From: Flavivirga algicola
GTDB taxonomy: Bacteria > Bacteroidota > Bacteroidia > Flavobacteriales > Flavobacteriaceae
Direction: 5' to 3'
Assembly (NCBI RefSeq): GCF_012910715.1
Contig: NZ_JABBHF010000008.1
Span: 1 to 64,000 of the forward strand
Length of the DNA stretch: 64,000 nucleotides
Shown in pieces: positions 21,248-26,618 of this stretch. The notes below the pieces were generated by a model. The model saw only the letters and a program-made list of their open reading frames with translations. It was not told the DNA's origin and did no database searches. Each line of letters starts with the position of its first letter. Within the stretch, counting starts at the first letter, position 1. The position numbers and the translations under genes were made by a program.

Positions 21248-21334
21248 TTCACCATGTCATTTTAATTGCTCACCAAGAATAAGATGGTGTTCACCATATT
21301 AATTTTATAAGCCTTTTCGATGGGAATATCTTTG
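21248..21334 (+). promoter_or_regulatory. Three 21-bp-phased TTCACCAT repeats and promoter of lipoprotein A
   Basis: TTCACCAT (21248-21255), CTCACCAA (21269-21276) and TTCACCAT (21290-21297) start exactly 21 bp apart. After a 29-bp gap comes the -7 box TATCTTTG (21327-21334), with TTA 19 bp before it (21305-21307). Direct repeats two helical turns apart are how LytTR regulators bind DNA, and a LytTR gene lies 1.3 kb downstream. The same array with the same 29-bp gap precedes the paralogous lipoprotein at 25455. ATGGTG (21284-21289) also makes an inverted repeat with the third copy. Confidence 0.7.
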
Positions 21335-21371
21335 TCTAATTAAAAAAATGTCCCATCAAGAAAGAAGAAAA

Positions 21372-22577
21372 ATGAAAAATTTATTTAAAACAAGCATATT
21401 TTTATTGATTAGTTTATTTATTGGGTGTAGTTCAGATGATAGTAAACCATCCGATGACAATGGTTCTGAAGTAGATTTAACAGCTGCAAGATTAGATGAT
21501 TTTCAATTGTCTGGAGTTTCTTATACCAATATTAGTTTAACACAGCCAGAAATTGTTGGTGGTGAAGAAAAAACACCAGGTACAATTATTATTACTGTTC
21601 CAGCTGCAACAGACCACCTTAATTTAAGTTTGGCTTCTGTTAATTTTAACGAATCTAAATTCGAAATATCCCCAGCAGTGGGTTCTGTACAGTCTTTTGA
21701 AGTGGGTAGCGCTATTGCTTATACCATTACTTCTAAAGATAACTCAGAAAAAAGCATAAGTTATTTGGTTTCGGTAGTAAAAGAAGAACCAGCAGCGGAA
21801 ACACTAAAAATAACAGGGTTTAAATTCGAAAAAAGCAAAAATTCAGAACTGCCATCAGATATAATGGCTACTAAAATAGTAGAATACCCAGGGACTAACT
21901 GGAATGCCATTTTTATCCTTGTGCCAAATGAAACAAACTTGACTAACTTAATTCCAACTATAGAATACAAAGGGACCTCTTTAGAATATAAACAAGGAAA
22001 CACAGGTTTGGCGGCTTTTGCACCATATCCAGAAACAGATTTAACCGTTGATTTTACAAGTAACCATGATTTGAGAAGTACAGATAGAAACGAATTCCTT
22101 TTATCTGTTATAGGTTCAGAATCAACAAAGAACTACCGTGTTATTGTTGATGTTCAAAACCCCATTGAGTTACAAAGTAATTCGGCATCAATAGGAGATT
22201 TAACAGAAGGAGGAGGAACTCAAATATATTCATTAAGATGGACCAATAAAGGAAATCACCCAATAGAAAGAAATCTTAAAGCCAGTGGCTACATAGATAA
22301 TACCTCTAATAAAATTGGAAATATATTTGAAGCTTATTTAGAGGTGTCAGATCCTTTACAAGGCGCATATATTAAGCCAGGAGAAGAAGGTCTTGTGATT
22401 TTAAAAGTTAATACTGATGGTGCTGCAATTGGAGACTATGATATTAATGTTACCTTTTCTCCAAGATATGATGTAAATCGGGCAAAGATTAATGACATAC
22501 GTGATGATTTAAATCCAATAGAAGATATTTTCTCACCAATAATATTAAACACTAGGTCTACAATTAAGAGCGAATAA
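21372..22577 (+). CDS. Lipoprotein A, DUF5018-like, paralogue of the 25455 gene
   Basis: 401 residues from the ATG at 21372; an earlier in-frame ATG at 21348 would add eight charged residues before the signal. The lipobox is SLFIGC. The body is beta-rich: a first module (about 30-135), then a module beginning LKITGFKFEKSKNSELPSD with FILVPNETNLTNLIPTIEYK, which recalls DUF5018-type Ig-like repeats. The C-terminal third contains IGDLTEGGGTQIYSLRWTNK. The 25455 protein has the same order, including LKLTGFTFEKSKN and VPVGTDFTNLVPT. Probably surface or periplasmic. Its promoter array suggests control by the adjacent LytTR regulator. Confidence 0.8.
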   Translation: MKNLFKTSIFLLISLFIGCSSDDSKPSDDNGSEVDLTAARLDDFQLSGVSYTNISLTQPEIVGGEEKTPGTIIITVPAATDHLNLSLASVNFNESKFEISPAVGSVQSFEVGSAIAYTITSKDNSEKSISYLVSVVKEEPAAETLKITGFKFEKSKNSELPSDIMATKIVEYPGTNWNAIFILVPNETNLTNLIPTIEYKGTSLEYKQGNTGLAAFAPYPETDLTVDFTSNHDLRSTDRNEFLLSVIGSESTKNYRVIVDVQNPIELQSNSASIGDLTEGGGTQIYSLRWTNKGNHPIERNLKASGYIDNTSNKIGNIFEAYLEVSDPLQGAYIKPGEEGLVILKVNTDGAAIGDYDINVTFSPRYDVNRAKINDIRDDLNPIEDIFSPIILNTRSTIKSE

Positions 22578-22646
22578 TAGTATCTATCCAATACAATATT
22601 AGTACTTTTTTATAGTTTTGAGGTTAGCTAAATCTAAAATGAATTT

Positions 22647-23378
22647 ATGGTAATTAACAATAAAAAAGTACTAATTGTTGAAGATGAATTTTCTATTGCA
22701 TTGGATATTGAAACCAGTTTAAAAAAAGTAGGATATGATATTGTAGGTATTGCAAGTAGTTATAATGAAGCCATGAAGTATGCAGAAGAAGCTACACTAG
22801 ATATTGTTATTATGGATATTAATATTTCTGGAGAAAAAAATGGTATAGTAACAGCTAAGGATATTTATGACAAATATAAAATTCCGATCGTTTTCTTAAC
22901 GGCTTATGGTGATGATGACACGTTTAAAAAAGCCTTAGAGTCTAGACCGTTTGCGTTTTTGTTAAAACCCTTTAATACTAAAGAATTGTCCTTTGCTGTA
23001 CAAATAGCGCTACAAAAACATCTTGAAAACAATACTCCAAAAACTACGATACCTGGTGCTAAACTATCTGAAATCATTTTTATCAAGGATAAATCGCAGT
23101 TTATAAGTGTTAAGATAAATAAAATTTTATGGGTAGAGGCTATGGATAACTATACTCAAATTATCACCAAGGACAAAAAGATTTTAGCCAATATGTTTTT
23201 AAAGGAATTCTATGAAAAAGTACCACAAGATAAGTTTTTAAGAATTCACAGATCCTATATGGTAGCTCTCGATAAAATTGATAAAATAGAAAATAGATTT
23301 ATTTTTATTAATGGACATAAAATTCCTATAAGTAAGGCATATAGAAGCCAATTAATAGAACGATTAGATATCTTATAA
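22647..23378 (+). CDS. LytTR-type response regulator
   Basis: 243 residues. The receiver domain (about 1-122) has KVLIVEDE, the phospho-acceptor Asp57 in IVIMDIN, the switch Thr in VFLTAYG and Lys in LLKPF. A LytTR DNA-binding domain (about 145-243) follows: ILWVEAMDNYTQIITKDKK, FLRIHRSYMVALDKI and GHKIPISKAYRSQL. It sits one base before a TPR histidine kinase gene, its likely partner. A -7-like box TAGTTTTG lies at 22613-22620. The phased repeats upstream of the two flanking lipoproteins are its most likely targets; its own promoter lacks them. Confidence 0.93.
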   Translation: MVINNKKVLIVEDEFSIALDIETSLKKVGYDIVGIASSYNEAMKYAEEATLDIVIMDINISGEKNGIVTAKDIYDKYKIPIVFLTAYGDDDTFKKALESRPFAFLLKPFNTKELSFAVQIALQKHLENNTPKTTIPGAKLSEIIFIKDKSQFISVKINKILWVEAMDNYTQIITKDKKILANMFLKEFYEKVPQDKFLRIHRSYMVALDKIDKIENRFIFINGHKIPISKAYRSQLIERLDIL

Positions 23379-23379
23379 T

Positions 23380-25317
23380 ATGGAGCAAACTTTACTCTTT
23401 TTAAAACAGTTTTTTTATCTCTGCTTTTTCTCTTTTTATGTTTCATTAACTGCGCAAACAGATAGTTTAGAGCAAAAATTAATTAAAGCTTCTAAGGAAG
23501 AAAAGATAGAACTCTATAAGCAGTTGGCTAACAAATATGAAAAAATTAAGATAGATAAAGCCATAGATTATGCCGAGCAGGGACTAGAATTGCTAAAGGG
23601 TGTAAATAATAAAAACACGGGTTTTTTCTATATGAGGCTTGGGTACTTATATAATGATAAATCCGAACATATAAAAGCGTTATTTTATTATAAGAAAGCA
23701 TTAGAAGTATCAGAAGAGTTAGATTATGAATTGGGAATAGGCAAATGCTATCAAAATATTGGGGTTACTCATGTGAAAATGGGAAATTATGATCAGGCCC
23801 TTGATTACGATCTAAAAGCACTAAAGATTTACGAAAAACATAATAAAGAAAACCTTGTTGCTGGAATAGTTGGTAACATTGGCTCGCTCTATTCGTGCCG
23901 ATTAAAAGATAATGAGAATGGCCTATTATATTATAATAGAGCATTGGAAATATCTGAAAAATCTGGAAATGATGAGTTTAGAGTTTATATTTTAGTAGCT
24001 GTTGCTGAGTTGTATGTGAGGCAAAAAGATATAGTAAAGGCTAAAAGTACATTAAAAAAAGCCATAGATATTGCAGAAGAAGTTAATTATCCAAAAGTTA
24101 TAATATCTGCATTAGCTAATCTATCTCAAATAAGTATAGAAGAAGAAGATTTTAAACAGGCCCTGATGTATTCTAAAAGAGCGTTGCAAATACGTTTAGA
24201 GTCTGGATATACAGAAGATGATACATCAACATATTTAACTCTTGCAGAGATTTATGAAAAACTTAAAAATACTAAGAAGGCAAAGGTATATTATAATCAG
24301 GCACTCACGGCTGCTCTAAAATCAGAGGCTTTACCACAGCTATCGAAAGTATATGAAGCGCTCCATAAGTATTCCGATAGAAGAAAAAACCATAAAAAAA
24401 GTTATGAGTATATATTAAAATATAATGAAGCTAAAGATTCATTATTTACTATAGAAAAAGATAAACAATTAAAGGAAATACAAGCAAAATTTGATTTAGA
24501 AAACAAGGAAAAAGAGATTCTGTTTTTAACTAAAGAAAACGAAATTAAGGTATTGGAAAATAAAAACCAAAGTACCACCAAAAACGTATTAATAATTGGG
24601 GTATTGGCGTTAACTATTACCCTTTTAACAGTATTCTATGCCTATAGAAATAAACAGGCAAGCAATAAAATTCTGGCAGAAAAGAACAAGGTTATATCCC
24701 AAACCTTAGAAGATCGTGAAATACTATTAAAAGAAGTACACCATAGAGTTAAAAATAATTTACAGATTGTATCAAGTTTATTAAGACTTCAGTATAAGTT
24801 TGGGAATCATAAAAGTTCTTCTGAAGTTTTACATGAAATTCAAGATAAAATACAAGCGATGTCTATTATACATGAAAGATTATATAAGTCCAATAATCTA
24901 TCATCAATTAATTTGAAAGCGTATCTCGATAATTTGTTAAGCTATTTTAATACGAGCTACGATCTTCCAGAGCAAAATATAACTATAACTACAGATATCG
25001 ATAATATAGATCTTGGGATGGATCGTTTGGTGCCTTGTGGCTTAATAGTCAATGAAATAATAGCAAACAGTATTAAATATGCATTTCAGGATGAAGCTAG
25101 CGGTCAAATTAATATAAAGGCATCAAAAAACAAGGATAAGTGTGTTCTCACAATAGAAGATACAGGAGTGGGATTTCCTGAGGGCTTTGAATCAAAAAGT
25201 AGTCAGTCTTTAGGGATGCAGCTTATACAGGGACTAACAAAACAAATTAAAGGTACCGTAGACATTATTTCAAATCCTGGAGCATGTTATACCATTACAT
25301 TTAGTATGGCTCAATAA
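23380..25317 (+). CDS. TPR-containing sensor histidine kinase (HisKA_2 type)
   Basis: 645 residues. An N-terminal signal (FFYLCFFSFYVSLTAQ) leads into about seven TPR units (about 40-330, for example YYKKALEVSEEL, NYDQALDYDLKALKIYEKH, LYYNRALEISEKS). A coiled linker and a membrane helix (about 400-420, VLIIGVLALTITLLTVFYA) follow. The kinase core has LLKEVHHRVKNNLQIVSSLL with the phospho-His in 454-455, then NEIIANSIKYAF (N box) and IEDTGVGFPEG (G box). The TPRs should lie in the periplasm as the sensing part. ATG is one base after the regulator stop, so both are translated from one mRNA. Signal unknown. Confidence 0.93.
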   Translation: MEQTLLFLKQFFYLCFFSFYVSLTAQTDSLEQKLIKASKEEKIELYKQLANKYEKIKIDKAIDYAEQGLELLKGVNNKNTGFFYMRLGYLYNDKSEHIKALFYYKKALEVSEELDYELGIGKCYQNIGVTHVKMGNYDQALDYDLKALKIYEKHNKENLVAGIVGNIGSLYSCRLKDNENGLLYYNRALEISEKSGNDEFRVYILVAVAELYVRQKDIVKAKSTLKKAIDIAEEVNYPKVIISALANLSQISIEEEDFKQALMYSKRALQIRLESGYTEDDTSTYLTLAEIYEKLKNTKKAKVYYNQALTAALKSEALPQLSKVYEALHKYSDRRKNHKKSYEYILKYNEAKDSLFTIEKDKQLKEIQAKFDLENKEKEILFLTKENEIKVLENKNQSTTKNVLIIGVLALTITLLTVFYAYRNKQASNKILAEKNKVISQTLEDREILLKEVHHRVKNNLQIVSSLLRLQYKFGNHKSSSEVLHEIQDKIQAMSIIHERLYKSNNLSSINLKAYLDNLLSYFNTSYDLPEQNITITTDIDNIDLGMDRLVPCGLIVNEIIANSIKYAFQDEASGQINIKASKNKDKCVLTIEDTGVGFPEGFESKSSQSLGMQLIQGLTKQIKGTVDIISNPGACYTITFSMAQ

Positions 25318-25342
25318 TAATACTATTAAAAAGCATATTAAA

Positions 25343-25429
25343 CCCACCAGCTATTTTAGTACGTTTACCATAAAAACAATTAGATTCACCATTTTTATTT
25401 ATTAATACCATAACGATGGTATAAGTTTG
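25343..25429 (+). promoter_or_regulatory. Three 21-bp-phased repeats and promoter of lipoprotein B
   Basis: CCCACCAG (25343-25350), TTTACCAT (25364-25371) and TTCACCAT (25385-25392) begin exactly 21 bp apart. A 29-bp gap leads to the -7 box TAAGTTTG (25422-25429). Number, phase and distance to the promoter are the same as before the paralogous gene at 21372, and the core ACCA is invariant in all six repeats. An extra perfect inverted repeat ATACCAT-AACG-ATGGTAT (25405-25422) touches the -7 box. Confidence 0.7.
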
Positions 25430-25454
25430 TCCTAAAAAATAAATAAAAAGATTC

Positions 25455-26618
25455 ATGAGAAGAATTATTAAATTACAAAGCATAGGAATTATATCATTAA
25501 TGATGCTGCTTATAATAAGTTGTGATTCTAGTGATGAAAACACTAGTAGCAACCAAGAGGTTAATATAGAAGAAGCTAAACTTTCGGATTTTCCTTTATT
25601 TGCAATACAACATACGGCAATAGAGATTATTGACCCAGAGATTGAAGGTAATAAAGAAGTTGCTTATGGAGAAATAAAAATTACTGTACCAAGTTCGGTA
25701 TCTCTAGATAATATAGCAGCATCCATTACATCCGAAGAACTTAATTTAAGCAAGTTTAGTATATCACCAGGAAATGATGCGGCATTATCTTTTGAAGACG
25801 GAAAAGCACATGTATATACCATTAGCTTGACTACAGGAAGCAAAGAAGCAATATTACATTACAATGTAAGTATCGTCAAGGAATTACCACCTGTTCCCGA
25901 GACTTTAAAACTAACAGGTTTTACGTTTGAAAAAAGTAAAAACCCAGATTTGCCCAATGATATTATAATTTCTAAAAGAGCAGATGTTAATGTAGGGTAC
26001 GAAAGAATTTATCTTTTAGTGCCAGTAGGAACTGATTTTACCAATCTAGTGCCGACTGTTTCTTATGAAGGATCAAATTTGTATTATAGCCAAGATGCCT
26101 CTATGTCACCCATAGATATGGATGTGAAATTTCCAGAAGGAGACGTTAGTTTTGATTTTAAATACCCTAAGAGGTTCTTTTTGGTAATTAAGGATGAAGA
26201 TAATGATAAGACGCAACTGATTGATGTCGTTGTAGATGTTACTAATCCAGTTAGAATAGAAACAGCATCGGTTACGACTCCAGACGTCACAGAAGGAACA
26301 ACTGGAAATTTTACAGCCCTAACAAAATGGGTCAATCAGGGGAATCATAAAATCAATTTTCAAAAAGCAACAACTTATGAAGATATCAGTCCTGTTATTA
26401 CACCTCCTGCAAATGTAATTACTGTAAATAGAACACTTCCTGGCGGCGGGTTACTACCAGGGGAAAGTGCTGATGTTAATGTACAAGTATCCCAATATTT
26501 TCCAGAAGGAACCTATAAAACCACAGCTGTTTTCTATACCAAAATATTTCAAGATAATGGTAGTGATGATCTATTTGAATCAGCAAAAGTCATGGTAACA
26601 TCAAAAATTATTAAATAA
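25455..26618 (+). CDS. Lipoprotein B, DUF5018-like, paralogue of the 21372 gene
   Basis: 387 residues with lipobox MLLIISC. Same architecture as lipoprotein A: an acidic linker, a first beta module (about 30-145, with ITVPSSVSLDNIAASI), a module starting LKLTGFTFEKSKNPDLPND with IYLLVPVGTDFTNLVPT, and a C-terminal module (VTTPDVTEGTTGNFTALTKW, LLPGESADVNVQVS). No catalytic motif is apparent, so a binding or adhesive role is more likely than an enzyme. The gene lies just after the histidine kinase, has its own repeat-bearing promoter and ends at a clear terminator. Confidence 0.8.
   Translation: MRRIIKLQSIGIISLMMLLIISCDSSDENTSSNQEVNIEEAKLSDFPLFAIQHTAIEIIDPEIEGNKEVAYGEIKITVPSSVSLDNIAASITSEELNLSKFSISPGNDAALSFEDGKAHVYTISLTTGSKEAILHYNVSIVKELPPVPETLKLTGFTFEKSKNPDLPNDIIISKRADVNVGYERIYLLVPVGTDFTNLVPTVSYEGSNLYYSQDASMSPIDMDVKFPEGDVSFDFKYPKRFFLVIKDEDNDKTQLIDVVVDVTNPVRIETASVTTPDVTEGTTGNFTALTKWVNQGNHKINFQKATTYEDISPVITPPANVITVNRTLPGGGLLPGESADVNVQVSQYFPEGTYKTTAVFYTKIFQDNGSDDLFESAKVMVTSKIIK

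Follow-up and report, generated by a model that had tools for sequence, protein, structure and literature searches.

Triple direct-repeat arrays as candidate operators of a LytTR two-component system for surface-protein genes in Flavivirga

In a 64,000-nucleotide stretch of the Flavivirga algicola genome (the window; assembly GCF_012910715.1, contig NZ_JABBHF010000008.1, positions 1 to 64,000), the genes for two paralogous lipoproteins, A and B, enclose those for a LytTR response regulator and a TPR sensor kinase, and each lipoprotein gene is preceded by an array of three direct repeats. We regard it as likely that these arrays are operators of the regulator encoded at 22647-23378, which, as we infer, would be phosphorylated by the TPR kinase, bind triple direct repeats and probably activate genes for surface proteins. 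Comparison of genomes shows that the array, a predicted operator, is conserved and specific and occurs only together with this regulator. The four genes lie on the plus strand in the order lipoprotein A, regulator, kinase, lipoprotein B, and the features of the locus are as follows:

21248..21305, plus strand: array before lipoprotein A, with octamers TTCACCAT, CTCACCAA and TTCACCAT at 21248, 21269 and 21290
21327..21334, plus strand: -7 box TATCTTTG of the lipoprotein A promoter, 29 bp past the last octamer
21372..22577, plus strand: lipoprotein A, with the lipobox FIGC and no Pfam match
22613..22620, plus strand: promoter-like TAGTTTTG before the regulator gene, a putative promoter
22647..23378, plus strand: LytTR response regulator, with a receiver (D13, D57, T85, K107) and a LytTR DNA-binding domain
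23380..25317, plus strand: sensor kinase, with a leader, TPR repeats, a hydrophobic segment at about 398-423, HisKA_2 with H454, and HATPase_c
25343..25400, plus strand: array before lipoprotein B, with octamers CCCACCAG, TTTACCAT and TTCACCAT at 25343, 25364 and 25385
25422..25429, plus strand: -7 box TAAGTTTG of the lipoprotein B promoter, 29 bp past the last octamer
25455..26618, plus strand: lipoprotein B, paralog of A

Two arrays, their promoters and the gene pair between them

The original prediction had given the positions of all six repeats, their 21-bp steps, an invariant ACCA and a distance of 29 bp from the last repeat to a TAnnTTTG sequence in both promoters, and each of these proved exact to the base. 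ACCA is identical in the six repeats, the period is 21 bp in both arrays, and the proximal repeat runs on into a conserved extension, ATTAATTT at 21298-21305 in array A and TTTTATTT in array B. TAnnTTTG at -12 to -5 is described as the flavobacterial -7 element (excerpts of PMC9723704 and PMC6847099). The spaced triple ACCA-N17-ACCA-N17-ACCA occurs twice in the window as against none in 100 dinucleotide shuffles, and a scan of periods 6 to 44 found two ACCA triplets at period 21 and one at period 18. The bare triple is not unique in the whole 5.0-Mb genome, where it occurs six times, four of them outside the locus; none of these four is a match, at E <= 1e-5, to the array profile described below, which sets the arrays clearly apart. 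A backwards-pattern control for the triple is uninformative in this genome because ACCA reads the same when reversed. Assignment of the two arrays to one type of putative operator is supported. Their profile (R1) E values are 8.8e-16 for A and 1.5e-16 for B, and both arrays were in the training set.

The regulator has both domains expected of its class (PF00072, E 1.4e-20; PF04397, E 2.8e-21), and the kinase gene, which carries HisKA_2 and HATPase_c and thus encodes an adjacent sensor histidine kinase, begins 1 bp further on. The description of the locus as two paralogous lipoproteins with a LytTR response regulator between them is thereby confirmed by the Pfam domains and by the 36% identity of A and B over their aligned part. 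By its domains and by the geometry of its predicted operators, the gene pair is a LytTR two-component system. Its leader, TPR repeats, single hydrophobic segment and H454 together suggest that the kinase is an exported TPR sensor, a topology deduced from the sequence.

Alignment of 22 arrays, 15 of them in cis to A, B or the regulator, extends this geometry to the orthologs. The array before B in genome G248, which has a 22-bp step, and the array at C7:212385 in G305 were left out, each having more than one mismatch to the strict pattern. In the 15 cis promoters information peaks at the two C of each ACC core, at 2.6 bits in all three copies, the spacers carry little, and the promoter-proximal copy extends as TTCACCATATTAATTT. 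A perfect TAnnTTTG follows 10 of the 15, nine times at 29 bp and once at 28 bp; the other five have a box matching at five of six positions at 29 bp, though the rule for ties favoured that distance. If TAnnTTTG spans -12 to -5, the octamers stand at about -91/-84, -70/-63 and -49/-42, the extension reaches about -34, and the three repeats fall on one face of the helix; on the same assumption, transcription is predicted to start near 21339 and 25434. Direct repeats with a period of about two turns upstream of the target promoters are thus found in both arrays and in the aligned orthologs. TTG occurs at a distance suitable for a -33 box in 5 of the 22 arrays; we give its absence elsewhere no weight because Flavobacterium johnsoniae promoters show little -33 signal (excerpts of PMC6847099).

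The kinase would sense something through its probably periplasmic TPR domain and phosphorylate D57 of the regulator, whose LytTR domains would bind the three direct repeats, which lie two helical turns apart on the same side of the DNA and end beside the -33 region. The bound regulator may then help RNA polymerase at a weak -7-box promoter, the predicted targets in the own genome being both lipoproteins and also, in trans, one secreted beta-propeller protein. Activation is favoured over repression because the octamers end upstream of the -35 region, as with RcoM1 and most LytTR regulators, an argument from geometry. The same regulator could instead repress the lipoproteins from the same operators, for example by covering the -33 region. 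CoxC, a LytTR repressor with a triple direct repeat in an operator that overlaps the -35 box (excerpts of PMC11347149), is a precedent that weighs against activation, and the extension of the proximal repeat would reach about -34 if TAnnTTTG spans -12 to -5. RcoM1 and most LytTR regulators, however, bind upstream of -35 and activate (excerpts of PMC11347149), and the octamers here end near -42. Moreover, the B promoters have a G inside the -7 box (TAAG, TAGG), a feature almost absent from F. johnsoniae promoters (excerpts of PMC6847099), so their basal activity may be weak; the A promoters show no such G. Altogether we consider repression unlikely.

Other features of the locus were also examined. 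The mechanical open reading frame of lipoprotein A begins at 21348; the start at 21372 agrees with the orthologs. Pfam searches of A and B at E 0.01 found no family, 17 of their relatives gave only weak family matches (DUF6242 in 4 of the 17, best E 0.0069), an NCBIfam search gave nothing telling, and comparison with solved structures returned three matches, the best at E 0.11. An AlphaFold2 model of lipoprotein B built from three sequences is mostly beta, with a mean predicted local distance difference test score (pLDDT) of 54. Upstream of the regulator gene lies a conserved promoter-like block, distinct from the arrays, at 22585-22630. Its TAGTTTTG is exact in 4 of the 8 orthologous loci (own, G248, G305 and G300), the remaining loci having a similar block by eye, and the regulator-kinase pair may have a basal promoter of its own here. 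TAGTTTTG has a G at the third position, and a G of that kind is nearly missing from the -7 boxes of F. johnsoniae promoters (excerpts of PMC6847099). A scan for sigma70-type promoters and terminators found nothing exceeding shuffles, and such a scan is uninformative for this phylum.

Arrays and regulator across the genus

Lipoprotein A has relatives in 10 of 12 genus genomes, as against 6 of 299 genomes of a family draw (E 1e-5), and orthologous promoters in the genus retain the array, its period and the box. The regulator has an ortholog (75-88% identity) in 8 of the 12; a search at E 1e-30 gave a 32% match in G304 and none in G299, G301 and G303. A sequence-only profile built from 18 arrays and run on all 12 genomes returned at least 43 matches at E <= 1e-5, all in the eight regulator-bearing genomes (at least 3 each in the own genome, G306, G019 and G302, 2 in G307, 1 in G300, 6 in G248 and 22 in G305) and none in the other four. 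Eighteen of these are the training arrays, and the other 25, from four regulator-bearing genomes, are new. The best matches in the four genomes without the regulator were at 1.6e-4 (G303) and then 0.008-0.013, and in the own genome the next match after its three arrays was at 0.038. The split, 8 of 8 against 0 of 4, has a probability of 1/495 when relatedness is ignored. In a tree of MeaB and PAP2 the four genomes lacking the regulator occupy three positions: G301 pairs with G302, G304 with G307, and G299 with G303 (each pair at 100%), some deeper branches being weak (25%, 39%).

Within the regulator-bearing genomes the array precedes A in all six that retain A, two of these arrays having a single mismatch in the ACCA cores. 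It also precedes 10 of 11 B genes; G305 has three of the 11, one of them broken. The arrays of G248 B and G305 C7:212385, set aside from the alignment, were recovered by the profile. In G302, which has lost A, an array begins 258 bp before the regulator; in G300, which has also lost A, an array stands before B only. The broken G305 copy of lipoprotein B (L038:4879-5340, minus strand; internal stop) still has a well-kept array. The four-gene block is wholly absent from G299, G303 and G304, where the PAP2 and MeaB matches are 108-127 bp apart, and L263, L264 and L265 are clean empty sites between these two genes in the three species. G301 is the sole informative case: PAP2, B and MeaB are kept, A, regulator and kinase are gone with two other long genes filling the gap, and B, the retained target, has its TAAGTTTG box and no array that could be found.

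The pattern is also specific. In 397 family genomes the strict pattern (three YTYACCA at 21-bp steps, no mismatch) matched in 13, two of them in the genus (own and G019); among the places listed, matches in the other 11 were repetitive DNA, either tandem repeats of 7 bp and runs of a similar nature or, in G380, one tandem repeat of 21 bp. Thus, among those places and with the strict pattern, there was no sign of what would have spoken against the original prediction, namely such repeats at numerous unrelated promoters where the regulator is lacking. The genus member G248 was missed in this draw owing to its mismatched arrays, and diverged arrays elsewhere could escape likewise. The search of the genome and its relatives for the triple repeat, also suggested there, led to a third array in the own genome and, within the genus, to arrays only together with the regulator.

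Several observations weigh against the link between arrays and regulator. The 12 genomes are related and so not independent, and the profile search scored 150 first-look candidates per genome, so that its counts are lower bounds. Loss of the cis arrays is trivial in three of the four genomes lacking the regulator, because the whole block is missing, and in G301 the DNA upstream of B has been replaced altogether. A second copy of B in G302 has no array, nor does the regulator gene of G300. The regulator tree orders the own genome, G306 and G019 differently from the MeaB and PAP2 tree (both at 99%), and exchange between species is therefore possible. In a pattern search of the genus, the true pattern gave 29 matches in 8 of 12 genomes versus 12 in 7 of 12 for the backwards control; some of the control matches may be the same arrays, and we relied on the profile search instead. 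Finally, the 500-bp regions before 29 less closely related regulators (27 from family loci at 36-41% identity, plus L112 and L113) contain no ACCA pair at 21 bp. The same regions held no convincing three-copy repeat, one of the 29 at p about 0.02 being chance level. In a contig scan with the regulator alignment, among the matches listed, 79 of 80 loci are at <=43% and one, in Flavivirga amylovorans (L116), is an ortholog at 75%.

Could the arrays be bound by some other protein, either one of the further LytTR paralogs or a factor of another kind, the link to this regulator being due to chance or shared descent? The own genome encodes several further proteins matching receiver plus LytTR at 24-31% identity, and the co-occurrence depends on 12 related genomes. 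The contrast of 8/8 and 0/4, with absence in three places of the tree, argues for this particular regulator, as do G304, which has no arrays and still encodes a 32% identical regulator, and G301, which keeps B without an array. We consider another binder very unlikely. As to the original prediction of a self-contained LytTR regulon, the tie between arrays and regulator is supported (the same 8 of 12 genomes, and the loss in G301), but the regulon is not self-contained, since a third array lies in trans and at least 22 occur in G305.

Targets beyond the locus

The third array of the own genome, at C1:319012 on another contig (L090:1501-2671), precedes a gene for a secreted beta-propeller protein of 354 residues with Por_Secre_tail, Vgb_lyase and NHL similarity, sorted by the type IX secretion system (T9SS); its orthologs in G306 and G305 also have the array. 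When the three propeller genes are compared with B (own, G306, G019), 69-81 of 111-112 promoter positions and 29-38 of 48 positions in the first 16 codons are alike, against 23-41% identity upstream and 28-35% downstream of this block. Promoter and leader were, we infer, copied as one block from B to the propeller gene. Of 29 propeller matches, 13 were examined, and the other 10 of these have neither array nor B-like leader; they include genes from regulator-bearing genomes and are thus no test of the link to the regulator.

The 25 new arrays (18 in G305, 5 in G248, 1 each in G019 and G302) widen the candidate target set further. Twenty-two precede an open frame; the products comprise 7 BspA-type LRR_5 proteins, 6 of which have Por_Secre_tail, 8 DUF285 proteins, 3 lipoproteins distantly resembling A and B, 2 paralogs of B and 2 small proteins with no family assigned. 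Two lie beside PAP2 (L037:11125 and L038:14217, minus strand), the next long frame being 439 nt on in G248 and 938 nt on in G305, and one is not followed within reach by any frame of 70 residues. At L038 a relic start, MKNLFK-stop, resembles the lipoprotein A leader. Many of the at least 22 arrays of G305 (L325-L328; contigs C7, C5, C22, C6) stand before tandem BspA-type LRR proteins and DUF285 lipoproteins. On its contig C17, four ACCA repeats at 21-bp steps precede distant A/B-like lipoproteins at L046:6658 and 8856, with no clear TAnnTTTG at 29 bp. A simple rule assigns an export leader to 25 of the 26 target proteins tested; among window frames of at least 180 residues, with spurious frames and membrane proteins counted in, the figure is 21 of 43. 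One of the 26 targets belongs to an array at 3.5e-5, and a control row from G303 was set aside. The sole target without a leader seems broken near its start.

These targets bear on whether the array is simply a duplicated promoter block, carried along with paralogous genes and of no regulatory meaning. A and B are paralogs and the propeller promoter looks copied from B, but the core positions stay while the spacers diverge, and the array also precedes the unrelated LRR_5 and DUF285 proteins; such a reading is hardly credible. Tentatively, a regulatory array may move as a portable promoter-plus-leader block that brings exported proteins of unrelated families, namely T9SS-sorted propellers, BspA-type LRR proteins and DUF285 lipoproteins, under a common LytTR regulon of the surface, with 1 to 22 arrays per species, and the TPR sensor may monitor that surface.

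Known LytTR operators and meaning

Almost all LytTR sites are described as two direct or inverse repeats of 9-11 nt with spacers of 11-13 nt (excerpts of PMC4847170). AgrA, VirR and YpdB resemble the present system in having such repeats and spacers (same excerpts) and differ in that they share no common consensus sequence and usually have two repeats. In RcoM the sensor domain is fused to LytTR. RcoM1 and CoxC (Paraburkholderia, Afipia) come closest, with three 8-bp direct repeats about two turns apart bound through a LytTR domain; the RcoM1 repeat is TTCNNGCA with 12-13-bp spacers, CoxC has 18-21-bp intervals, and the CoxC sensor domain is MHYT (excerpts of PMC11347149). Both have a sensor fused to LytTR and cox genes as targets, unlike the receiver-LytTR protein with its kinase, the repeat TTCACCAT, the Bacteroidota -7 box and the surface-protein targets found here. 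Membership of this one-component class was ruled out, the N-terminal domain being a receiver with no fused sensor. The partner kinase of Escherichia coli YehT (BtsR) is of the LytS type. The BtsS/BtsR (YehU/YehT) class was also ruled out, since the kinase here combines TPR repeats with HisKA_2 and, past its leader, has a single hydrophobic segment. The oligonucleotide printed for YehT contains ACCGCTTA-N13-ACCACTCA, with an ACC(A/G) core and a 21-bp period by our count (excerpts of PMC4847170); its target is yjiY, and three repeats and a TPR/HisKA_2 kinase set the present system apart.

Relatives of this regulator are frequent among the family genomes (97 of 397 at E <= 1e-40), yet a search of the open-access literature found no named operator for any LytTR regulator of this phylum. 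Neither this operator nor a LytTR regulon of Flavivirga was found described there. The kind of operator, triple repeats under LytTR domains, is already known from RcoM1 and CoxC; what is new is the sequence of the repeat, its occurrence in this phylum, the targets and the seeming transfer of promoters. The result is a predicted operator defined by sequence, at a fixed distance from a Bacteroidota -7 box, with a list of candidate targets in eight genomes. It also provides a case in which genes for surface proteins seem to join a regulon by gaining a promoter and leader, and it makes the action of a LytTR regulator at the -7-box type of promoter of the Bacteroidota directly testable.

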